The notes under the pieces: generated by a model
What the model saw: the letters and a program-made list of their open reading frames with translations, nothing else
Told to the model about the DNA's origin: nothing
Database searches by the model: none
Shown: one piece after another, positions 1 through 36,600 of the stretch
Layout of the letters: each line of letters starts with the position of its first letter
Position numbering within the stretch: position 1 is the first letter of the stretch
Position numbers and translations under genes: made by a program
Assembly (NCBI GenBank): GCA_012523545.1
Contig: JAAYIH010000054.1
Span: 1-49,289, forward strand
Reading direction: 5' to 3'
Length of the DNA stretch: 49,289 nucleotides
Origin: Bacillota bacterium
GTDB taxonomy: Bacteria; Bacillota; Proteinivoracia; UBA4975

Positions 1-2
1 CT

Positions 3-179
3 GCGCTGGTGCAAGACGTCGCGACCAGGCATGAAGAATGCGGCGCAATAGTGGAATTGCTCGCAGTCGTGCTCATCCTTTTTGGCGGTGCCGCTGCCTT
101 CTGCGTCGCCGTCTGCGGTATTGGCAAGGTGCAGTCCTGTGATGTAGGCTGGCTGCACGTCACCGCTGTCTGCAAGTAG
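3..179 (+). CDS. 3' end of a small Cys-rich hydrophobic peptide, candidate secreted peptide precursor (partial)
   Basis: One frame is open from the left edge to a TAG at 177-179, giving at least 58 residues; the start lies outside the window. Numbered from the first full codon, it has a hydrophobic stretch (about residues 16-38) containing a Gly-Gly pair (28-29). Five cysteines sit at 13, 34, 38, 46 and 57, four of them in the last 25 residues, and the peptide ends in Lys. The other two forward frames stop within the first 50 bases. A peptide-binding/protease gene, an ABC exporter and disulfide enzymes follow on the same strand, so I infer a precursor whose C-terminal core forms disulfides. 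It could instead be the tail of an unrelated small membrane protein. No family was recognised. Confidence 0.45.
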   Translation, partial: ALVQDVATRHEECGAIVELLAVVLILFGGAAAFCVAVCGIGKVQSCDVGWLHVTAVCK

Positions 180-197
180 GCGGCAGGCAACCTGGGG

Positions 198-237
198 CCA
201 AAGTAGAGAAAGCCGCTCCCGGCTTTCTCTACTTTGG
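198..237 (+). promoter_or_regulatory. perfect 18-bp hairpin between peptide gene and maturation genes
   Basis: Positions 198-215 pair perfectly with 220-237 around a four-base CTCC loop. No T-run follows on the + strand, so it is not a standard full terminator. Hairpins between a peptide gene and its processing genes often stabilise the short upstream message or let only part of transcription through. That role is inferred here. Confidence 0.7.
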
Positions 238-267
238 AAACTTACCGAGATAAGGAGTGGCATAGCA

Positions 268-1146
268 ATGTACATCGGCGCCAACACTGTGGTGTCGCTG
301 CCCTGCGGGGTGGCCGTCGACGGCGACGGCCTCTTCGACGCGGCGGTAAACCACAACTACAAGCTCAACGAAACCGGCAACGCCGTCGTCCGACAGTTGC
401 TGGAAGGGGCTACAGTGGGCGAAGTATGCCGGCGCATTGCCGCACAATACGGCTGTTCTGCGGACACTGTATTCAGGGACATCCGTGCCCTTTTGCACCA
501 GCTCAACCAGAGGGCGTTGATTCACGTACATACACCCGGAGAATTTTGGGCCCGCATCCGCGCCCTGGTGCGGCAACCGGCTCAAATCTTCTTACATATA
601 CTTAAGTTTGTGCAGACCGGACCGGAGTACAAAATACACCGGTACCCCGCCAGCCTGCAGGGCATTTGGGCTGGCCTCAGGCCCTTTGCCTCCTTCATGA
701 TGTACGGAGTGCTGTTTGTTGCGGCGGCAATTTTCCTGTCGGCGCTGCTGTCTGCAGGGGCGGTGGATATTACCGAGACGGCATTGCTGTCGGCTGCCCC
801 GGTGCTGGGGGCGCTGCTCTTCCTGCTCAGCCTGGTGGTCCATGAATACGGTCACCTGTGGAGCCTGCGCCGGTACGGCGCCGGCGAGCAGAGTATTATA
901 ATCCGGCGCGGTTTTTCCATCAACGTTGCGCACCCCCAATTGCCGCGCAAAGCCGGCGTCATTGTGGCTCTTTCGGGGCCGCTGCCGGCCATGCTGGCGG
1001 GGCTGGCGGCGACGGGTATCCTGTCGCTGCTGGGGGCCCCCCGGCTGTATACATTGCTGGCGCTGTTGATCAGCATTTCCCACCTGTATACCCTGACCCC
1101 CTGGAACAAGGACGGCCGCGTGCTGTGGAAGGGAGCCGGTAAATGA
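268..1146 (+). CDS. PqqD-like domain fused to M50 (site-2-type) membrane metalloprotease
   Basis: The 292-residue protein has two parts. Residues 1 to about 95 resemble PqqD/RiPP recognition elements: a 'LNETG' turn, a helix ending in a two-helix 'TVGEVCRRIAAQYG' type pattern, then an 'L..L..RALI' end. Such domains bind leader peptides of ribosomally made peptides. From about residue 130 it is a multi-pass membrane protein with the zinc motif HEYGH (His192, Glu193, His196) and a second M50 motif NKDGR with Asp282, so both halves of the active site are present. An AAGGAG SD at 252-257 supports this ATG. Its stop overlaps the next start (ATGA). By comparison with M50 proteins of peptide operons such as yydH, it probably cuts or handles the peptide encoded just upstream. 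That substrate is inferred. Confidence 0.8.
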   Translation: MYIGANTVVSLPCGVAVDGDGLFDAAVNHNYKLNETGNAVVRQLLEGATVGEVCRRIAAQYGCSADTVFRDIRALLHQLNQRALIHVHTPGEFWARIRALVRQPAQIFLHILKFVQTGPEYKIHRYPASLQGIWAGLRPFASFMMYGVLFVAAAIFLSALLSAGAVDITETALLSAAPVLGALLFLLSLVVHEYGHLWSLRRYGAGEQSIIIRRGFSINVAHPQLPRKAGVIVALSGPLPAMLAGLAATGILSLLGAPRLYTLLALLISISHLYTLTPWNKDGRVLWKGAGK

Positions 1147-1919
1147 TGCAGGTAAGCCAGGAAAAGCCGGAGCTGAAAAAACAGGCGCTGACCCTCGCCG
1201 GGGCAGTCGCCGTCCGGGGCCGCTTTCAATTGGGCCCCCTGGAAGCCTCCCTTCCCTTTGGCCAGATTACGGTGGTGGTCGGGCCCAACGGAGCGGGCAA
1301 GACCACCCTGACCCGGGTGTTGCTGGGGCAAATCCCGCTTAAAAAGGGGCACATCCGCTTGCAGGAGCGGGAGATTCATACCGCCCGGGCCGAGTGGCGC
1401 GCGCGGCTGGGTTTTTTGTCCGACGACCCCAATGAACTGCTGATTGAGTGCAGTGCCGAAGAGCTGTGGCGGTTCTGCATCGGCGTCAATGTCCTGCGAT
1501 TTCCGAAGGATATCCGGTCCCAAATGCGGGCCGCGATGCTCAGGCGCGCCCGGGCGTTGGCGGACATGCTGCATTTTCTGCCGCCGGCGCGGCAGCCCAT
1601 TGCCGAGTACAGCCTGGGCATGCGCAAGAAAACCCAGCTCATTGCCGCCCTGTGTACTGATCCGGACATAATAATCCTGGATGAGCCCAGGAACGGGCTG
1701 GATCCCATCGGCATCGATCAGATGCACCGCCTGCTGCGCGCCCTGGTGGCGGAAGGCAAGTTGGTGCTTATCGCCACCCACGACCTGGCCTGGGCTTTGG
1801 CCCATGCCCATAATTTCCTCGTCCTGCGGGCAGGCAGGATGGTGCTGGCGGCAACCGCCGATGAGGTAAAGCGCAAGGGGGGTGAGGCGTATTTGCTGGA
1901 CCGGCTTGCGCAGGACTGA
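1143..1919 (+). CDS. ABC transporter ATP-binding protein (peptide export or immunity)
   Basis: This 258-residue ABC ATPase has Walker A GPNGAGKTT at residues 47-55, a variant signature YSLGMRKK, Walker B ending DEP at about 180-182, and an H-loop ATHD. The 'SLGM' signature is typical of BcrA/SkfE/YydI-like exporters that work with a separate permease. The start ATG overlaps the stop of the protease gene by four bases, so translation is probably coupled. The adjacent permease and the peptide context point to export of, or self-protection from, the peptide made here. The substrate is inferred. Confidence 0.88.
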   Translation: MMQVSQEKPELKKQALTLAGAVAVRGRFQLGPLEASLPFGQITVVVGPNGAGKTTLTRVLLGQIPLKKGHIRLQEREIHTARAEWRARLGFLSDDPNELLIECSAEELWRFCIGVNVLRFPKDIRSQMRAAMLRRARALADMLHFLPPARQPIAEYSLGMRKKTQLIAALCTDPDIIILDEPRNGLDPIGIDQMHRLLRALVAEGKLVLIATHDLAWALAHAHNFLVLRAGRMVLAATADEVKRKGGEAYLLDRLAQD

Positions 1920-3438
1920 GGGCAAAGATTTTCTTGCGGTGACGGCCAGTCTCATTGAGGTGACCCTCAACTCGATTATCCGCAAGTTGCCCTTTGCCCT
2001 GCCCTCGGTGCCCGTGACCGTTGGGGGGGCGCTGTTGCTGGCCCTGGGGCTGGGCTTTGCCTGGGCGGCGCCGCTGCAGCGGGCACTGGCGGCAATGCTG
2101 GACATCACCCCCGGGCATTTTCGGTTTACGGTGTTTTACGCCCTGTTTGCCCTGTGGTTTTACCTGCCGGTGTCCATGATGTTTCCCACCATTGCGCCCG
2201 CCGAAGGGCGGCTGCGCTTTTTGGCCCGGCTGCCTTTGCCGCCGCGGATGCTGGGCATTTGCCTGATGTCCCCGGTGCTCCTGGTGCTGGTGCTGTTGGT
2301 GCTGATGGTGCTGCCGGCATATCTGGGGGCAGCGGCAGCGGCGCTGGGGCTGTCTTATCTCAATGCGCTGCTGATGCTGGTGGCCCTGGCGGCGGTATGC
2401 GCCACCCACGCCCAGGCCACCTACGCCCTCGGTGCCAACCTGGCGGTGCGCTGGAATGCTCTGGGGTTAAGCGCAACGGCGACCAACCAAATCCTGGCCT
2501 TTGGCTATGCAGCGCTGCTGGTCTTTGCCGTGCGCCAGAGTTTTCTGGGGGTGTACAGCTCTTACGGGCAACTGGTCAAGTACATACTGGTGCTGTTAAA
2601 ATGGCCGTTGCTGCTGGCGCCGGCCGGCAGCGGCAGCCCCTGGTTGCCGGCGGCGGCGGGGGCGGTGTTGCTGGCGGCGGGGGCATTGGGCACGGCCTTG
2701 TTGCCCGCTGTCCTCGCCCCGCGGGTCAACGAAGGGTTTGGGCGGGCAAGGTTTGGCTCCCGCCTGCTGCTCCGCTTTCCCCGGCTGGAGCTGTTTGTGC
2801 GCTTTGCCCGGTCGCCCCGCATGCGCGAACACATCAACGTGTATACCCTGGCGCTGATTATCATCACGGCGCTGATCAAAATAAGCGAGCAGGTCTTTCA
2901 ACGGGCGCTGAGCACCCAGCTGGTCTTTTTGCTCGCCGCCATAGCCGGCAACCTGGCGGCGCTGTGCAGCGCAGTGACCACCGCGCCCGCAGAATTTTAC
3001 CAGTTCCAGGTCGGCCTGTCGGTGCATAAAATGCGGGCACTGGCCTTTGCCTTCGGAATTGTTTTTTCCTTGGGGTTTGGGCTGGCGGCTGGGGCGGCGG
3101 CCCTGGCTGTTTTAAACCAGCCCTGGCGCCTGTTGTACAGGTTGCTTACGCTGTCCGCCGTCAGCAGCCTCGTTGGCTATGCCTACGGGGCACTGGCCCT
3201 GTCCCGGTCTTACTACCGCACGCCCGTCGACGGCCTGGCCCTGATTGCCTGCAGCATCTTCCTCCTGGCCATCGGGGCCGTCGCTGCCAGGCTGGGGTTC
3301 CCGCTGGACACGGCCCGGGGCGGAGCGGCGGCGGGCGTGGCCCTGGCGGCGGCGCTGGCGGCTGTGTTTGCCCTTCAGTACCGGCGGGCCAAGGCCGGCA
3401 AGGCCTTTGGGGACAGACAAGGGGAGGTGAAGTTTTGA
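1882..3438 (+). CDS. ABC-type permease, large multi-pass membrane protein
   Basis: Up to 518 residues, strongly hydrophobic, with roughly a dozen membrane segments and short Arg-rich cytoplasmic loops. No soluble domain or enzyme motif is seen. It directly follows the ATPase gene and is very probably its membrane partner, comparable in position and size class to SkfF-type permeases. The start is uncertain. GTG at 1882 overlaps the ATPase gene by 38 bases, while GTG at 1939 (499 residues) lies just past its stop; neither has a well-placed SD. Low sequence identity to textbook ABC-2 permeases would be expected, so the family call rests on topology and context. Confidence 0.75.
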   Translation: MRRICWTGLRRTEGKDFLAVTASLIEVTLNSIIRKLPFALPSVPVTVGGALLLALGLGFAWAAPLQRALAAMLDITPGHFRFTVFYALFALWFYLPVSMMFPTIAPAEGRLRFLARLPLPPRMLGICLMSPVLLVLVLLVLMVLPAYLGAAAAALGLSYLNALLMLVALAAVCATHAQATYALGANLAVRWNALGLSATATNQILAFGYAALLVFAVRQSFLGVYSSYGQLVKYILVLLKWPLLLAPAGSGSPWLPAAAGAVLLAAGALGTALLPAVLAPRVNEGFGRARFGSRLLLRFPRLELFVRFARSPRMREHINVYTLALIIITALIKISEQVFQRALSTQLVFLLAAIAGNLAALCSAVTTAPAEFYQFQVGLSVHKMRALAFAFGIVFSLGFGLAAGAAALAVLNQPWRLLYRLLTLSAVSSLVGYAYGALALSRSYYRTPVDGLALIACSIFLLAIGAVAARLGFPLDTARGGAAAGVALAAALAAVFALQYRRAKAGKAFGDRQGEVKF

Positions 3439-3740
3439 AAAGCGTCATCAGAGTGCTGACGGCGGGGGTATTTATCGGTTTGCTGATTTGCGTCGCCCTG
3501 TTTATCGCTGTAGGCATAAAGTCTTCCGGGGCGACGGGTACGGTGACCCAGGAATTCCTGGGCGTTCCCGTCCTGGAAAGCACCAAAACCGCTTTGGCGG
3601 CAGGCGGCTTTTCGGCGCAACTGCGGCCGCTGCCGGGCCTGTTGCTGCCCCTGCTGGGCCCGGCGCTGGTCCTGCTGGCGGCGCATATAATAATCAAGCC
3701 CCTGGCAACCCGCGGCAAGGGGCGGGTTGCCGAAGAATAA
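3435..3740 (+). CDS. small two-helix membrane protein of the peptide cluster
   Basis: This 101-residue protein starts with TTG, placed six bases after a strong GGGGAGGTG SD (3421-3429), and its start overlaps the stop of the permease gene. It has an N-terminal membrane helix (about residues 7-28), a loop of some 30 residues and a second helix (about 66-88), then a basic tail. There are no recognisable motifs and only one Cys, within the first helix. Its place between the permease and the redox genes suggests an accessory transporter subunit or an immunity protein. I do not recognise the family. Confidence 0.7.
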   Translation: MKSVIRVLTAGVFIGLLICVALFIAVGIKSSGATGTVTQEFLGVPVLESTKTALAAGGFSAQLRPLPGLLLPLLGPALVLLAAHIIIKPLATRGKGRVAEE

Positions 3741-3756
3741 GCGGGGAGGAGTGGCC

Positions 3757-4410
3757 ATGTCCAGACAGGTAAAGATGTTGCTGCTGTTCTTCCTGTTGGC
3801 GGGCAGCGTGTTCAGCATTGCCCGGTTCGCCGGGTCCGGCCTGCTGGCGCAGCCCCAGCCGGCGGGCAAGACGGTGAGCCCGGCGGATTTGCCAGTGCGG
3901 GAGTACAACCACCGGACGGGGAGCGGCGGCGCTGTGACGGTGCTGGTATTTTCCGATTTCCAGTGTTCGTCATGCCGCACCGCTGCCCAGGCCCTGGACA
4001 GGCTGGCTGAGGAATTTGCCCGGGAAATAACCCTGGTGTACAAGCATTATCCCCTGCCCCGCTTTGCAAACTCCTTTGCCGCTGCCCTGGCGGCGGAGGC
4101 GGCGGGGGCGCAGGGCAAGTTTTGGGACATGCACGATTTGCTGTATGAAAGGCAGTCTGAGTGGACAGACGCAGCAGAGCCCGTTGCGGTTTTTGGCCAA
4201 TGGGCCGCACAACTGGGACTGGATGTGGAACAGTTCCGGCGGGATGTCGCCAGCGAGGAAGTGGCGGAGAGGGTGCGCCAGGACATCGCCGACGGGCAGC
4301 AGCTGGAGATCATCGGGACGCCGACCATCTACGTCAACGGCACGCCGTTGCCCGTTAAACCCACTTACAGGAATCTGAAAAGGGCAATTGAACTGGCTCT
4401 GGAGCCCTGA
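3757..4410 (+). CDS. membrane-anchored DsbA-like thioredoxin-fold oxidoreductase
   Basis: The 217-residue protein has an N-terminal hydrophobic anchor (about residues 5-22) and an extracytoplasmic thioredoxin fold of the DsbA/Thioredoxin_4 type. The active site is Cys70-Ser-Ser-Cys73 and the cis-proline loop is GTPT, with Pro189. A GGGGAGGA SD at 743-750 of the fourth kilobase (3743-3750) supports ATG 3757 over an upstream TTG at 3727. Family members oxidise or isomerise disulfides in exported proteins; BdbA and SkfH play such parts in Bacillus peptide operons. Here it is likely to form disulfides in the Cys-rich peptide encoded at the left edge. Confidence 0.85.
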   Translation: MSRQVKMLLLFFLLAGSVFSIARFAGSGLLAQPQPAGKTVSPADLPVREYNHRTGSGGAVTVLVFSDFQCSSCRTAAQALDRLAEEFAREITLVYKHYPLPRFANSFAAALAAEAAGAQGKFWDMHDLLYERQSEWTDAAEPVAVFGQWAAQLGLDVEQFRRDVASEEVAERVRQDIADGQQLEIIGTPTIYVNGTPLPVKPTYRNLKRAIELALEP

Positions 4411-4446
4411 GAGGCGATTGGGTCCTTGAACGAGGGAGGGAAAAAA

Positions 4447-4839
4447 ATGACGGACAAGCGCGCCGGCATCCTTGCCCTGCTGGCCGCCATCAACGTCCTG
4501 GTGTTGGGGGCGGTCTTCTGGCTGGAGAATTCCGGGCCGGGCTGCGACTGGCTGTGTCAGGAGCAGGCGGGTGTGCTGGACAGCGGCACCGCTGCTGGTT
4601 TAGGCATATTGGCTTCAGTGGGCCTGGGTTGGGCGGGCCGTGCGGCCCGGAGAGCGGATAGGTTTCGGTATGCCGCCGCCGCTCTGGCAGCAGCGGCGAC
4701 GGGGTTGGCGGCCCTGCGCCTGTTTCAGCCCGCCGGCCTGGCGGCGCTGTTTGCGCTGCGCCTGCTGGCTGTAGGCATTTTTGGCCTGATGGGCGCTCTG
4801 CTGCTTTACGCACCGGCGGCCCGCCAGGCGCCGGAGTGA
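4447..4839 (+). CDS. small four-helix membrane protein with Cys33/Cys37, possible quinone-linked redox partner
   Basis: This is a 130-residue membrane protein with about four predicted helices. After the first helix a short loop carries Cys33-Asp-Trp-Leu-Cys37, followed by 'VLDSG' and a Gly-rich helix. That pattern faintly recalls the loop Cys pair and 'S.yg..fG' region of VKOR/DsbB-type proteins. No second CxxC is visible, so a full VKOR active site is not supported. The start is ATG 4447 after GAGGGAGGG (4432-4440). Lying between a DsbA-like and a thioredoxin-CcdA protein, it may re-oxidise the former. Function is inferred; it may equally be a structural subunit. Confidence 0.6.
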   Translation: MTDKRAGILALLAAINVLVLGAVFWLENSGPGCDWLCQEQAGVLDSGTAAGLGILASVGLGWAGRAARRADRFRYAAAALAAAATGLAALRLFQPAGLAALFALRLLAVGIFGLMGALLLYAPAARQAPE

Positions 4840-4869
4840 AGCGGCGGAAAAACGGAAGGAGGGGTTGCG

Positions 4870-6009
4870 GTGGCTGACGGTATTTGCAGGCGGGCGGCGG
4901 TCTTTCTCCTGCTTGCCATAGTCCTGAGTTTTGTTTCCCCGGCTGCAGCCGTCCCGGAGGGCGGGGAGGCTGAGCTCTGGTATTTCTGGGGGGAGGGGTG
5001 CAGGAAGTGCGCCTCGGCCCGTGCCTGGCTGGAGGACCTCAAGGGCAAGTACCCGGCGCTGACGGTGCATGAGGCCGAAGTGTGGAAGGACCCCCAGGGG
5101 CAGCGGCAGTATGTGGAAAAGCTGAAGGCCATGGGGGCAGAGGCGTCGGTGGTGCCGGCCTTTGTGGCGGGGCAAAGGGTGTGGCTGGGTTTCAACAGCG
5201 CCTACGCCGCGGAAATTGAAGAGGAGATAAGGCTGGCCCTGGCTGCAGAGGGCGGCGGGGAGGGCGCTGCCCTGGCCCGTAATATCCTGGACCTGGGGCC
5301 GCTGGGGAGCATTTACCTGGCCGGCCAGCCGCTGTTGCTTCTTACGGCGTTAATTGCCTTTGCGGACGGATTCAACCCCTGTTCACTGTGGGTGCTGACG
5401 GTGCTGCTGGCCATGATTTTAAGTTCCGGTTCCCGCTCCCGGGTTATGGCAGTGGGCATTACCTTTTTGCTGGTCACCGGCCTGGTGTACGGGCTGTTCA
5501 TTTCCGGTTTTTTTGGCATACTGAGCATCGTCAATCATTTGTACTGGCTGCGGGTAGCCATTGTGGCACTGGCCCTGGTCTTCGCCGTCATCAACATCAA
5601 GGACTTTTTCTTTTTCAAAAAGGGGGTTTCCCTGACCATCCCCGAGGCCATGAAAAAGAATATCTACCGGGGCGGCCGGGAAATAAGAAAGGAGCGTTCG
5701 CTGCCGGCCATGCTGATGTTGACGGCGACGCTGGCGGCAGGGACAGCCCTGGTTGAACTGCCGTGTACGGCGGGATTGCCCATGCTGTGGGCCAGCCTGC
5801 TGTCCAATGCCGCGGTTTCCGGCGGCGCCTTTTTCTTGCTGTTGCTGGTGTACCTGGCGGTGTTCCTGAGCATTGCCATTGCAATTCTCATTGCGGCGGT
5901 GGCGACGATGCGCACCAGGCGCCTGCAGGAAGTGCACGGGCGCACCCTGAAGCTCATCGGCGGAATCATCATGGCCATAATGGGCGTGGGGATGGCGCTC
6001 AACTTGTAG
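4870..6009 (+). CDS. secreted thioredoxin-like domain fused to a CcdA/DsbD-type transmembrane domain
   Basis: The 379-residue protein starts at GTG 4870 after AAGGAGGGG. A signal sequence (about residues 7-28) is followed by a thioredoxin/glutaredoxin-like domain with Cys44-Arg-Lys-Cys47 and a downstream 'VVPAF' cis-Pro loop. From about residue 155 come six or so membrane helices of the CcdA/DsbD class, with the paired cysteines in 'NPC' (Cys171) and 'LPC' (Cys299). Such proteins carry electrons from cytoplasmic thioredoxin to extracytoplasmic disulfides, so this one would reduce or isomerise disulfides opposite the DsbA-like protein. It is the last gene before a terminator. Confidence 0.85.
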   Translation: MADGICRRAAVFLLLAIVLSFVSPAAAVPEGGEAELWYFWGEGCRKCASARAWLEDLKGKYPALTVHEAEVWKDPQGQRQYVEKLKAMGAEASVVPAFVAGQRVWLGFNSAYAAEIEEEIRLALAAEGGGEGAALARNILDLGPLGSIYLAGQPLLLLTALIAFADGFNPCSLWVLTVLLAMILSSGSRSRVMAVGITFLLVTGLVYGLFISGFFGILSIVNHLYWLRVAIVALALVFAVINIKDFFFFKKGVSLTIPEAMKKNIYRGGREIRKERSLPAMLMLTATLAAGTALVELPCTAGLPMLWASLLSNAAVSGGAFFLLLLVYLAVFLSIAIAILIAAVATMRTRRLQEVHGRTLKLIGGIIMAIMGVGMALNL

Positions 6010-6037: not shown

Positions 6038-6065
6038 AACAGGCCCCGTTGCGGGGCCTGTTTGT
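6038..6065 (+). terminator. intrinsic terminator of the peptide cluster
   Basis: A 10-bp perfect stem (6038-6047 with 6053-6062) has a five-base loop and runs into a T-rich stretch. It lies 28 bases after the CcdA-fusion stop and marks the right end of the cluster. Confidence 0.75.
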
Positions 6066-7221: not shown

Positions 7222-7908
7222 ATGGGAATTTTATCCAGGTTTGGGGAGATCATTTCGGCGAATATCAATGCCTTGCTGGACAAGGCGGAAGACCCGGCCA
7301 AGATGGTAGACCAGTACCTGCGCAAGCTCACCGAGGACCTGGCCCAGGTCAAGCGGGAAACAGCAGGAGTAATGGCCGAGGAGAGCCGGACCAAGCGCTT
7401 GGTGGAAGAGAATGAAAAAGAGGTGGCCAAGTACACCGAACTGGCCAAGAAGGCCCTGTTGGCCGGCAACGAAGACGACGCCCGGGTGTTTTTGGCCAAG
7501 AAGCAGGAAATCGAGGAAGCCGGGGTCAGCCTGCAGACTGCGTACGCCGCTGCCCACGAGAACGCAGTCAAGATGCGCCAGCTGCACGACAAACTGGTGC
7601 GGGACATCAACGCCCTGAACCGGCGCCGGCAGGCCATCAAGGCCAAAGTGGCGGTGGCCCGGACCCAGGAGCGGATCAACAAACTGGGCGATGTGGCGGA
7701 AAAAACCCAGGGCAGCATCAGCGCCTTTGAGCGCATGGAGGAAAAAGCCGACCGCATGCTGGATGTGGCCAACGCCATGGCGGAACTGGACAGCCAGCCC
7801 GTCGATGAGGCCCAGGCTTTGGAAGAAAAATACAAGCAGGCCGACGTCAACGCTTCGGTGGAAGACGAGTTGGCGGCCCTCAAGAAACAGCTGGGGCTGG
7901 ACAAATAA
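7222..7908 (+). CDS. pspA: PspA/IM30 family membrane-protecting coiled-coil protein
   Basis: At 228 residues this matches the usual PspA/IM30 length. The N-terminal 'GILSRFGEIISANINALLDKAEDP' region is the amphipathic helix and first hairpin characteristic of the family. It is followed by long charged helices with heptad character over about residues 25-210. PspA proteins polymerise on the inner membrane face and preserve the permeability barrier. An AAGGAGGTAG SD precedes ATG 7222. The upstream TPM-like gene is probably its membrane partner. A strong terminator follows directly. Confidence 0.93.
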   Translation: MGILSRFGEIISANINALLDKAEDPAKMVDQYLRKLTEDLAQVKRETAGVMAEESRTKRLVEENEKEVAKYTELAKKALLAGNEDDARVFLAKKQEIEEAGVSLQTAYAAAHENAVKMRQLHDKLVRDINALNRRRQAIKAKVAVARTQERINKLGDVAEKTQGSISAFERMEEKADRMLDVANAMAELDSQPVDEAQALEEKYKQADVNASVEDELAALKKQLGLDK

Positions 7909-7916
7909 AAACAAAA

Positions 7917-7946
7917 GAACCCTGGTCGGGAACCAGGGTTCTTTTT
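7917..7946. terminator. bidirectional intrinsic terminator after pspA
   Basis: A 10-bp perfect stem (7917-7926 with 7932-7941) is followed by TTTTT on the + strand. A-rich sequence on the other side provides U-rich RNA for the converging - strand gene that ends at 7955. Confidence 0.88.
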
Positions 7947-7954
7947 GCTGTGGT

Positions 7955-8889
7955 TTAAATTTCTGCCGTTTGCCCGGCTTTTTTTATGCGCTTGAGCAGG
8001 ATGGCGGCCACAATGGCGACCAGGGCGCCGCCCCAGTAGATCAGCGCGATGTTGCGGGGGATGGTCAGCATATTGGCCATGAAGGCAGAGGCTGCTTTTG
8101 CAGCGCTGTGGTCGACGTTTTCCGGAAGTGCCGGCATAAAGAACCCGCTGCCGCCAAAGAGCAGGAACAGGAAGCCGCCGGAGACGATCAGGGCGACGGC
8201 GGTGGCGATGAGGCCCGGTCTGAGCCGGATGAGCAGCATCAGTGCGATGAGGAACAGGCAGATGCCGATGGCGATGAAAAACGCCGGGCCGATAAGGCGG
8301 ACTGACCTGGAGAACCTGGCCAGGTTGTCGGCCAATTCGGGGTTGTCTTTGGTAATTTCCGCGAGGAGGTCGACTTCCACTGTCTTAAGGTTCAGCTGGG
8401 CTTTGAGTTGAGAGACGGCCTCCTCCTGGGCCTGTCTCAGTTCGGCGTCGGGAAGCTTCAGCAGCCTCTCGTGCTCTGCGGGATTCAGGGTTTTGGCGCG
8501 GTTCAGGAAGAATTCCCTGTCATTAAGAGCGCTTCAATCTGGGTGGCAATCGGGGTCAGGTCCAGGCTGAGCATCATGTGCTCTGTTTGCCCGGACAAAA
8601 AGGCAAAGATGGTGGAGGAAGCAGTCTTGCTTAAATCCACCAGGACCTTGTTCAGATCCAGGCGGGGCAGGACGGTCTCGATAAATTCCTGCTGGCCGGG
8701 AGACAGTTCGGCCTCCTGGGCAAGGTACTCATGCAGGAGCTGCTGCAGGTCGGCTGCCATGATGATCTCTTCAAGGGTTCTGACGATGAAAGGTTCGGAC
8801 ATGATGGTGCGGACTGCGCCCAGGACTCCGGTTATAATCAGGGCGGGGATTAAAAAAAGCGTAATTAAAAAGACAAGAAAAGCGCGCAT
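7955..8889 (-). pseudogene. frameshifted membrane protein gene (single-base loss near 8520)
   Basis: Two reading frames join into one protein of about 310 residues. The 5' part runs from ATG 8889 (SD AAGGAGGA) with an N-terminal membrane helix and an extracytoplasmic helical region, and stops at 8503. The 3' part is open from before 8520 down to 7955. It continues the helical region (...NDREFFLNRAKTLNPAE...) and ends in three membrane helices and a basic tail. Adding one base at the 'ctcttaatgac' site on the - strand, about 8520-8526, restores the frame. Coding character is kept on both sides, so the break is recent or a sequencing error. The family is not recognised; helix, large loop and C-terminal helices suggest an envelope protein. 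Confidence 0.75.
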
Positions 8890-8958
8890 GTCATTCCTCC
8901 TTCTGCGCGGTAAATTCCACCAGGGAAGGCAATTTTCCTGCATGCGCGCCGTAAAAAA

Positions 8959-10836
8959 TCATTTTTCTTGCTCAACTGCCAGCCGGAGCCTGCGCAACAG
9001 CCCTTTGGAAGGCACGCCGGCGGGTGTCCAGCCCCGGAGACGGTAGTACTTTTTCAGCATTTTCTCCAGCCTGACCGGGGTGGCACCTTCCTCCAGCAGA
9101 CGCCGGGGCAGGGTATCGTCTCCGGGCTGCAGGCCCTGGCGCAGGTTGATGAGGCGTTCCAGGGTAAAGCCCCGCTCGCCGATGCGCAGAAACTTGCCCA
9201 GGGGCATTTTGAAGCCGGTGGCCAGCTGGATGGCCAGGGTATGGGGGAGCAGCGCTTTGAGATGTATCGGCATCAGCCGGGGCCGGCGGTGGAGCAGGCC
9301 GACAATGCCGCCGGCGGCGGGCGCCAGCTTGTTGACCAATCGGGCGGCAATGCCACCGGGTTTATTGAGCAGGAGGGCGGGCAAGACAGCGTAGGTGGTG
9401 AAGAGGCAGGTGCCTCCCGCCGATACCGCTTCCATCAAGTCCTGGAAGAATACGGCAAAGGCGGCCTTGCCCATGGTGGCGGCGCCGCTGACGTCCAGGC
9501 CCAGCCCTTCCAGCACCACTGTATAACCGCCGTTGAGATGGCAGCCGCCGCGGTTGGCGGTGGCGTAGCCCAGGCCCATTCCCTGGGCGGCGCGGGGTTC
9601 GTAGGCGGCCAGCTCCAGGCCCTTGACGTGCATGGCAAATTCCTGGCCGCCGTACTTTTGGGACAGGCGCCGGGTGCCTTCTGCCAGATCTGCGCCGATT
9701 CCCTTCCGGTACGCCACCAGCTCCACCAGCTCTGCCAACGGGCCGGCATCGCCGAATTGCAGGCCGTTGTTCCACAAGCCCCTTTCATTGAGCTCCATGG
9801 CCAGCCCGACAGTGCTGCCGAAGGAAATGGTGTCGATGCCGTACTCGTCGCAGAGGTGGTTGACCCGGATGATGCTTTCCAAATCGTTGTTGAGGAGGTT
9901 GCTGCCCAAAAGGCAGATGGTCTCCAGTTCCGGGCCCTTGACGGCCTTGCCGTCCACCATAACTACCCGCCCGCACTGGATGGGGCAGGTGGGGCAGCCC
10001 CGGTTGGTTACCAGGTATTTTTCCCGCAGGGTTTCGCCGCTGATGAGGTCGTGGTCCTGGTAGGTGCCCCGGGCGTAATTCCTGGTGGCCAAGAGCTGGC
10101 GTCGGTGCATCGGGCGCACCAGGTTGGCGGTGCCCAGTTGGGGCAGACGGTGTCCGGTGATGGGGTGGGCGCGCAGCTGCTTTACCCACCGGCGGTTGAG
10201 GGCGCGGAACTCCTGGGGGCGGTACAGGGCAACGGTGTGTGTGCCCCGGGCCACCAACCCCTTGAGGTTCTTGGCGCCAAAGACGGCGCCGGCGCCGCCC
10301 CGGCCGGCCGCCCTTTCCTGGCTGACCAGGGAGGCGTAGCGCACCATGTTTTCGCCGCCGGGCCCGATAACCAGCTTGCCCCCGGGACCCAGGAGTTCCT
10401 GGGTTTGCGATGTGGTCTTGCCCCACAAGCCGGTTGCATCCTTGCAGGCGATGCCGTCGGGGGAGATGTCCAGGTAGACCTTGTCCGGGCTCTTGCCGGT
10501 TATGATGAGGCCGTCGTAGCCGGCGCGCTTTAAGGACAAGCCGAAATTGCCGCCGCAATTGGATGAGACCAGCAGGCCGGTCAGGGGCGAGATGGTGGAT
10601 ACATTGAACCGCGAGGAGCAGGGGGCGGCAGTGCCCGTCAGGGGCGAAGTGGTTATGACGACGGCGTTTTCCGGGGAATAGGGGTCAGTTTTACGGGGCA
10701 GGAGATCGTAAATGATTTTGGCGGCCATGATCTTTCCGCCCAGGTACAGCTCCCGCTCCCGGGCAGAAAAAGGATAATCGGTTACTTTGCCCGTACTCAG
10801 GTCGACATGGGCGATTTTGCCGGTGTAAGCGTACAT
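8959..10836 (-). CDS. aor: aldehyde:ferredoxin oxidoreductase (tungsten pterin enzyme)
   Basis: The 625-residue protein is of normal AOR length and is collinear with the family. The N-terminal domain carries 'GGKIMAAKIIYDLLP' and the pterin-binding 'GxGGENxVRYASLVSQERAAGRGG' region. The 4Fe-4S ligands are Cys281-x2-Cys284-x3-Cys288, with Cys477 as the fourth. A C-terminal 'GDDTLPRR' motif is present. AORs interconvert aldehydes and carboxylic acids using ferredoxin, with a tungsten bis-pterin cofactor in the cytoplasm. The AAGGAGTAG SD lies six bases after the alcohol dehydrogenase stop, so the two genes form one operon. Together they can link acids, aldehydes and alcohols. Confidence 0.95.
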   Translation of the reverse strand: MYAYTGKIAHVDLSTGKVTDYPFSARERELYLGGKIMAAKIIYDLLPRKTDPYSPENAVVITTSPLTGTAAPCSSRFNVSTISPLTGLLVSSNCGGNFGLSLKRAGYDGLIITGKSPDKVYLDISPDGIACKDATGLWGKTTSQTQELLGPGGKLVIGPGGENMVRYASLVSQERAAGRGGAGAVFGAKNLKGLVARGTHTVALYRPQEFRALNRRWVKQLRAHPITGHRLPQLGTANLVRPMHRRQLLATRNYARGTYQDHDLISGETLREKYLVTNRGCPTCPIQCGRVVMVDGKAVKGPELETICLLGSNLLNNDLESIIRVNHLCDEYGIDTISFGSTVGLAMELNERGLWNNGLQFGDAGPLAELVELVAYRKGIGADLAEGTRRLSQKYGGQEFAMHVKGLELAAYEPRAAQGMGLGYATANRGGCHLNGGYTVVLEGLGLDVSGAATMGKAAFAVFFQDLMEAVSAGGTCLFTTYAVLPALLLNKPGGIAARLVNKLAPAAGGIVGLLHRRPRLMPIHLKALLPHTLAIQLATGFKMPLGKFLRIGERGFTLERLINLRQGLQPGDDTLPRRLLEEGATPVRLEKMLKKYYRLRGWTPAGVPSKGLLRRLRLAVEQEK

Positions 10837-36365: not shown

Positions 36366-36600
36366 TGGCAAAGACGATGAAGGGGAGAGCCGTTTTCCGG
36401 TGCTGGCAGAGAGCCGGTGGGTGGTGCAAACCGGCAGCGAGGATTGCGGCGTACACCCCGGAGAACCGCACCGAAAGGCTGCGCTCAGTAGGCTGCGGCG
36501 CCTGACCCCCGTTACGGGTCCCAACGAGGGGGCTGTATCTGCAGCCAATTTGGGTGGTACCGCGGGCAATCCCGTCCCATTGGGGACGGGTTATTTTTTT
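36366..36600 (+). promoter_or_regulatory. T-box riboswitch of tyrS (tyrosine specifier)
   Basis: The T-box sequence TGGGTGGTACCGCGG is at 36551-36565. It is followed by a terminator stem (36571-36578 with 36583-36590) and TTATTTTTTT. Upstream, AGAGAG and GGTGG stretches mark the distal part of stem I, and a TAC codon at 36452-36454 is the likely specifier for tRNA-Tyr. Uncharged tRNA-Tyr would stabilise the antiterminator and switch on tyrS. The left boundary is approximate. Confidence 0.93.

Follow-up and report, generated by a model that had tools for sequence, protein, structure and literature searches.

TMcins are antibacterial pore peptides published in 2025-26 (PMC12328743, PMC13252029). 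TMcin-G1905 comes from Staphylococcus aureus G1905 and its plasmid pCT545 (Dickey et al., 2025; PMC12328743), and its biosynthesis is the subject of a preprint (PMC13252029). Its gene set comprises the 297-bp tmcA, encoding a precursor with a membrane helix and two universal cysteines, the ATP-binding cassette (ABC) pair tmcBC, the protease gene tmcP, the two-segment escort gene tmcE and the DsbA-like tmcD; the TmcBC permease is a single chain of about 12 membrane segments (PMC12328743, PMC13252029). Cleavage, escort, disulfide formation and export have been assigned by experiment for the staphylococcal TMcin (PMC13252029), which forms pores and kills other Gram-positive bacteria (PMC12328743). 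The activity of TMcins depends on the disulfide. Among other ribosomally synthesized and post-translationally modified peptides (RiPPs), daptides use a protease with a RiPP recognition element (RRE) N-terminal to a site-2 protease and a leader motif ...MEAP (PMC10036551), and epipeptide operons contain an M50 protease (PMC10885120). Here we analyzed a 49,289-nucleotide stretch of a Bacillota bacterium of the UBA4975 lineage (contig JAAYIH010000054.1, assembly GCA_012523545.1; hereafter the window), designated C44 among the contigs of a draft genome (bin) of 1.73 Mb. Its left end probably carries a divergent TMcin-type bacteriocin operon, the predicted product of which is a disulfide-bonded, membrane-pore-forming peptide.

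This assignment, made from sequence comparison, is carried by a full-length match of the protease to its family, by the operon layout and by a DsbA gene, with a weak match of the precursor. As in TMcin-G1905, a precursor with a helix and a two-cysteine C-terminal stretch is accompanied by a site-2 protease, an ABC pair, a two-segment protein and a DsbA. The RRE-protease, the ATPase, the DsbA and the cysteine pattern are directly present; the permease and the two-segment protein resemble their counterparts only in size, topology and location. The operon has the following features:

1-179, plus strand: 3' part of the tmcA-like precursor gene (5' part on contig C7, positions 7914-8056; 127 window bases are common to both)
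198-237, plus strand: intercistronic stem-loop between the precursor and protease genes, 18-bp stem, no U-run (-32.9 kcal/mol, z -5.45)
268-1146, plus strand: tmcP-like fusion of a PqqD-type RRE and a site-2 (M50) intramembrane protease, 292 aa, with HEYGH and a distal D (KDG)
1143-1919, plus strand: tmcB-like ABC ATPase (PF00005 E=2e-23; family profile E=1e-38, although unrelated ABC ATPases score equally high)
1939-3438 (alternative start 1882), plus strand: tmcC-like permease of about 500 aa, 11 predicted hydrophobic segments
3435-3740, plus strand: tmcE-like (escort) small protein, 101 aa, two membrane segments (10-28 and 69-87)
3757-4410, plus strand: tmcD-like DsbA-family oxidoreductase, CSSC (Thioredoxin_4, PF13462 E=3.3e-21)
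4447-4839, plus strand: 130-aa membrane protein with a CxxxC loop, no Pfam, NCBIfam or PDB match
4870-6009, plus strand: 379-aa thioredoxin-like (CRKC) and CcdA-like membrane protein, assigned by motifs and a weak glutaredoxin-like N-terminus
6038-6062, plus strand: terminator-like stem-loop that closes the operon

Seven plus-strand genes follow the precursor, with gaps of -4, 19, -4, 16, 36 and 30 bp, in the order A-P-B-C-E-D and then the CxxxC membrane protein and the thioredoxin-CcdA-like protein; no convincing terminator was seen ahead of 6038. A first-pass annotation, made from the sequence alone, had listed the elements on one strand and a closing terminator, all of which are present. 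It had also proposed a RiPP-like disulfide-peptide cluster with protease-fused leader recognition and its own oxidant, and this part is supported. Its view that the class was uncharacterised has to be given up, the gene set being that of the TMcins (PMC12328743, PMC13252029).

The protease is matched over its full length by a family hidden Markov model (HMM) trained without the window (E=3.7e-26), and its PqqD domain by PF05402 (E=7.8e-12, residues 28-85, followed by HEYGH). In an AlphaFold2 model, only the RRE part is good (predicted local distance difference test, pLDDT, about 85; whole-model mean 61). The best Foldseek matches of this model are leader-bound lasso-peptide RREs, PqqD and SpoIVFB, each of them weak (E 0.006 and up). 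The proteases of the Bacillus pumilus and B. licheniformis groups are only about 20% identical to that of the window, and nowhere was an eight-row protease alignment sufficiently conserved to allow a pattern scan.

Ten distinct clusters carry the RRE-protease fusion, and Pfam detects PqqD in all nine that were scanned, in three of them (L122, L124 and L125) below the curated cut-off. The motif [YF]xxP occurs near the precursor N-terminus in 10/10 RRE clusters and in none of three RRE-less ones (L127, Staphylococcus epidermidis and Roseburia); the association (Fisher p=0.0035) is descriptive only, since the motif was picked after viewing the sequences and the clusters are related. It would fit capture of the leader by the RRE via the YxxP motif. 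In the protease tree the window sits on a long branch with weak support, and the RRE-less proteases form one group nested among the others with moderate support, a topology that is compatible with a single joint loss of the RRE and the leader motif. Neither TMcin paper mentions an RRE or PqqD (PMC12328743, PMC13252029).

Direct searches with the window protease and permease returned no near relatives among about 400 genomes of the phylum, genome contigs, viral contigs and plasmids; three weak matches in the phylum turned out to be spurious or to come from ordinary M50 frames. Relatives emerged when PF05402 matches from 398 genomes were screened for HExxH and then used for profile searches. The screen yielded two PqqD-M50 fusions from one genus, each clustered with a short MTYA precursor, an ABC ATPase, a two-segment membrane protein of 93 aa and a permease of about 495 aa. 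A profile search then added, from the same order, five full-length fusions and one RRE-less protease. A genome scan contributed 15 Bacillus loci (L129 being a contig already counted as L086), and three plasmids of Paraclostridium bifermentans came from plasmid searches. The relatives thus come from Paraclostridium plasmids and from Bacillales, including the B. pumilus and B. licheniformis groups. We take NC_006270.3 to be a B. licheniformis chromosome. It has been cited as a homologous system in the description of TMcin-G1905 (PMC12328743). By precursor HMM, a precursor with two invariant cysteines was found at 26/26 relative loci, 25 of which have the fusion, so that short cysteine-bearing genes do accompany such proteases, as the first-pass annotation had anticipated.

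The link from these clusters to the TMcins runs through a Staphylococcus epidermidis plasmid with the published layout (order B-C-E-P-A, with a 297-bp last gene). Its proteins match the Bacillus HMMs (A 1.5e-17, P 1.1e-12, E 2.1e-9, C 8.7e-15), and the Bacillus clusters are therefore TMcin-type. The clusters of the pumilus and licheniformis groups (L128-L142) share with the window the RRE-protease, an MTYxxP leader, two cysteines, the ABC pair, a protein with two membrane segments and a hairpin after the precursor gene. Unlike the window, they have the order A-B-C-P-E, no redox gene seen in the operon and room for a single disulfide. The gene for the two-segment protein is followed by a DsbA gene in the window, in G422, in G446 and in the Paraclostridium plasmids, and an HMM of the cluster DsbAs matches the window DsbA (E=8.2e-7).

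Several relatives have neighborhoods of their own. Agr-type genes (GHKL kinase, AgrB and LytTR regulator; L122 2974-5740) lie directly upstream of the G446 cluster, together with a 40-aa frame containing SCFWFL...EPELP that could be AgrD, which suggests quorum control. In L127, two identical 88-aa precursor genes stand in tandem downstream of the RRE-less protease (8544-9125), and the opposite strand carries DsbB and thioredoxin genes at a distance of 1-2 kb upstream of the cluster. A second zincin gene (DUF3267), possibly for immunity, follows DsbA in the Paraclostridium plasmid clusters (L143 9718-10350). The Roseburia plasmid (L159 5226-7897) carries a TMcin-type precursor, a protein with two membrane segments and a DUF3267 protease, and adjoins genes for a cysteine desulfurase-like protein and a large hypothetical membrane protein.

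The first peptide frame of the window (3-179, plus strand) runs open off the left edge. The last 127 bp of contig C7 match window positions 1-127 exactly, with identity ending there, and C7 was the only match to this stretch when the other contigs of the bin were compared; the truncation can therefore be read as an assembly break. Joining C7 to C44 gives a ribosome-binding site and a GTG start (AGGTGAGGAGGTGACATC-GTG) for a 64-aa peptide, MTYVAPALVQDVATRHEECGAIVELLAVVLILFGGAAAFCVAVCGIGKVQSCDVGWLHVTAVCK, so that the upstream frame is a complete short peptide gene and not the end of a large protein. Upstream on C7, a stand-alone LuxR-type response regulator is encoded 168 bp from the start; the region also contains a MATE gene and other, unrelated genes.

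The peptide has a leader beginning MTYVAP..., a single membrane helix at about residues 22-43 with its hydrophobic segment at 25-43, cysteines at 19, 40, 44, 52 and 63, and a C-terminal Cys-Lys. C40 and C63, at the helix end and the C-terminus, align with the two invariant cysteines of TMcin-type precursors, and both are encoded on the C44 side of the join. C44 and C52 are additional, giving four core cysteines against two. With an eight-member HMM, the window precursor is the best non-training open reading frame (ORF) of 7223 (13.1 bits, E=0.025), a rank that corresponds to about 3e-6 for one ORF named beforehand. Its coarse features recur in only about 8 of 5541 short ORFs from elsewhere than the family. 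An AlphaFold2 model of a Bacillus relative's precursor has a helix at 14-46 followed by a beta-hairpin; Foldseek with the model of the window precursor gave nothing usable.

The hairpin at 198-237, which the first-pass annotation had missed, has comparable counterparts of unrelated sequence after the precursor gene in most Bacillus relatives examined. Clear examples occur in G422, G446 and the pumilus and licheniformis groups, and in L123-L125 and Paraclostridium the hairpin is weak or absent; the Bacillus hairpin alignment contains two compensated pairs. Strong intercistronic hairpins often stabilize the precursor message or restrict read-through.

Several observations count against a TMcin-type operon. 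The precursor match is weak, with E=0.025 for the eight-member set and 0.48-0.68 for two other member sets (0.68 for the 10-member set), so homology leans also on the cysteine pattern, the position and the shared protease. The tryptophans that flank the helix, which are highly but not universally conserved in TMcins (PMC12328743), are missing: the first site is A/I in the window and W in the relatives L123-L125, and the second is F39 in the window and W or Y in these relatives. The permease has no significant match to those of relatives (hhalign E=0.55 over a co-linear 76-residue stretch), and its hydropathy-profile correlation is uninformative (0.14, with many circular shifts higher); position, length and segment number are as in relatives. 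The two-segment protein likewise has no significant match to its counterparts and no family match in Pfam, NCBIfam or PDB searches, and it agrees in position, length and two segments. Both assignments are especially weak by sequence. Gene order differs from that of TMcin-G1905, the protease gene lying ahead of the ATPase gene, and close relatives were not found in about 400 phylum genomes or genome contigs. Finally, the join consists of only a 127-bp overlap in a draft genome, with a GC content of 0.53 in C7 and 0.62 in C44.

The window also departs from TMcin-G1905 in its N-terminal RRE and YxxP leader, its four core cysteines, a DsbA in the same operon, the CxxxC and thioredoxin-CcdA proteins, a LuxR regulator instead of a small helix-turn-helix operon, and very divergent sequence. 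The extra redox genes raise the strongest competing explanation, namely that the TMcin-type core is real and that the CxxxC and thioredoxin-CcdA genes are general envelope redox bystanders, which we regard as a serious contender that falls somewhat short of even chances. Relatives of the thioredoxin-CcdA protein in G349, G191, G007 and G135 stand beside a branched-chain amino acid ABC transporter and other unrelated genes, and neither gene occurs in any other TMcin-type cluster examined. The closest relative, from the same-order genome G007 (50% identity over part), is split across two contig ends (L041 2995-3722 and L042 1-890) and adjoins SUMF1-like and RDD-like genes with no peptide cluster. 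The protein was consequently rejected as a cluster marker. However, both genes lie on the operon strand with gaps of 30-36 bp and no convincing terminator before 6038, the precursor has its two additional core cysteines, the thioredoxin-CcdA gene is single-copy in its genome, and the CxxxC protein was not found in 12 relatives of the class. No relative of the window DsbA was found in 12 class relatives, and its own genome yielded no further PF13462 protein.

The CxxxC membrane protein could possibly be a quinone-linked re-oxidant of DsbA. In the 379-aa protein, two NPC/PCT-type membrane cysteines are of CcdA type, a reading that rests on motifs because Pfam returned no CcdA match; from this single case, it could possibly act as an electron-importing reductive arm that proof-reads the second disulfide. 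The first-pass annotation had proposed both an oxidising and a reducing arm: the oxidant stands, and the reducing arm is conjectural, given that the thioredoxin-CcdA protein also occurs without such a peptide. We tentatively, and with considerable doubt, propose a two-disulfide TMcin subclass in which the RRE reads YxxP, the only DsbA of its family in the organism, a re-oxidant and a CcdA-fed isomerase make and proof-read the disulfides, and the RRE-leader pairing is ancestral and was lost in the staphylococcal type.

In the proposed mechanism, the precursor would insert into the membrane, leaving the leader (MTYVAP...) on the cytosolic side and the cysteine-rich C-terminus outside. The RRE of the fused protease would grip the YxxP of the leader, and the site-2 protease would cleave near the inner face, assisted by the two-segment escort; by analogy with TMcins, the helix would stay in the mature peptide. 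DsbA, perhaps re-oxidised via the Cys-pair membrane protein, would form the conserved C40-C63 disulfide and probably also a second one, C44-C52, while the thioredoxin-CcdA protein could send electrons outward to repair wrong cysteine pairs. The ABC pair would then extract the mature peptide from the membrane, and the peptide would oligomerise into pores in Gram-positive targets. Of these steps, we infer leader capture by the RRE, the second disulfide, the reductive arm and the pore activity of the window member.

The peptide might instead be a signal or a self-directed killing factor, following the logic of yyd, skf or SDP, rather than a bacteriocin. The stand-alone LuxR regulator upstream and the Agr-type genes beside the G446 cluster would suit this idea, but the related TMcin kills other Gram-positives through pores (PMC12328743) and no radical SAM gene lies nearby, and we find it unlikely. 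No radical-SAM CxxxCxxC was found in ORFs of at least 80 aa across 8 kb upstream and 15 kb of the window. The yyd/epe and skf operons also place a membrane protease and an ABC pair around a small peptide (PMC10885120 and general knowledge). In contrast to their epimerised or thioether products, a disulfide is expected in that of the window, and its protease is an RRE fusion and its operon lacks a radical SAM enzyme; the kinship with skf and yyd suggested in the first-pass annotation thus reduces to analogy.

Membership in another RiPP class with an RRE and a site-2 protease, such as the daptides with their C-terminal chemistry, appears highly improbable. Daptide clusters share the RRE-site-2 protease fusion, a hydrophobic precursor, a leader motif ending in ...AP and ABC transporters (PMC10036551), and the pumilus-group protease matches the daptide model along its length (E=5.2e-8), far under the model cut-off. 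Unlike the C-terminally modified daptides, however, the window has a single precursor ending in Cys-Lys and not in the invariant Thr of daptides, and the operon and flanking genes examined contain no oxidative decarboxylase, aminotransferase, alcohol dehydrogenase, methyltransferase or second (DUF-RRE) RRE protein. That the precursor is a chance ORF or the contig join wrong, as the draft status, the GC step and the weak HMM score might suggest, is just as improbable, given the ribosome-binding site, start codon and family leader motif created by the join, the conserved cysteines on C44, and the rank and rarity of the ORF.

Elsewhere in the window, a PspA/IM30 gene (7222-7908) lies 1.2 kb past the operon end; the role of PspA-type proteins in shielding leaky membranes makes a connection with self-protection conceivable, if unsupported. 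A T-box leader (Rfam RF00230) occupies 36368-36582. Among the other contigs inspected, L007 (2687-3493) encodes a Uma2-type nuclease domain fused to a Phd/YefM antitoxin-like N-terminus.

If of the TMcin type, the operon would extend the TMcins to a distant lineage. Relative to the TMcin papers, what is new is the RRE fusion with its [YF]xxP leader, the DsbA genes outside staphylococci, and the extra core cysteines with a possible reductive arm. tmcD has been stated to be missing outside staphylococci (PMC13252029), which the DsbA genes in non-staphylococcal clusters contradict. Many TMcin-type proteases appear to have a leader-reading RRE with a matching motif, which would connect the TMcins with daptides and other RRE-guided RiPPs and open the class to discovery by RRE mining. 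The operon may also serve as a natural experiment on the need for a reductive, proof-reading arm in pore peptides with several disulfides.

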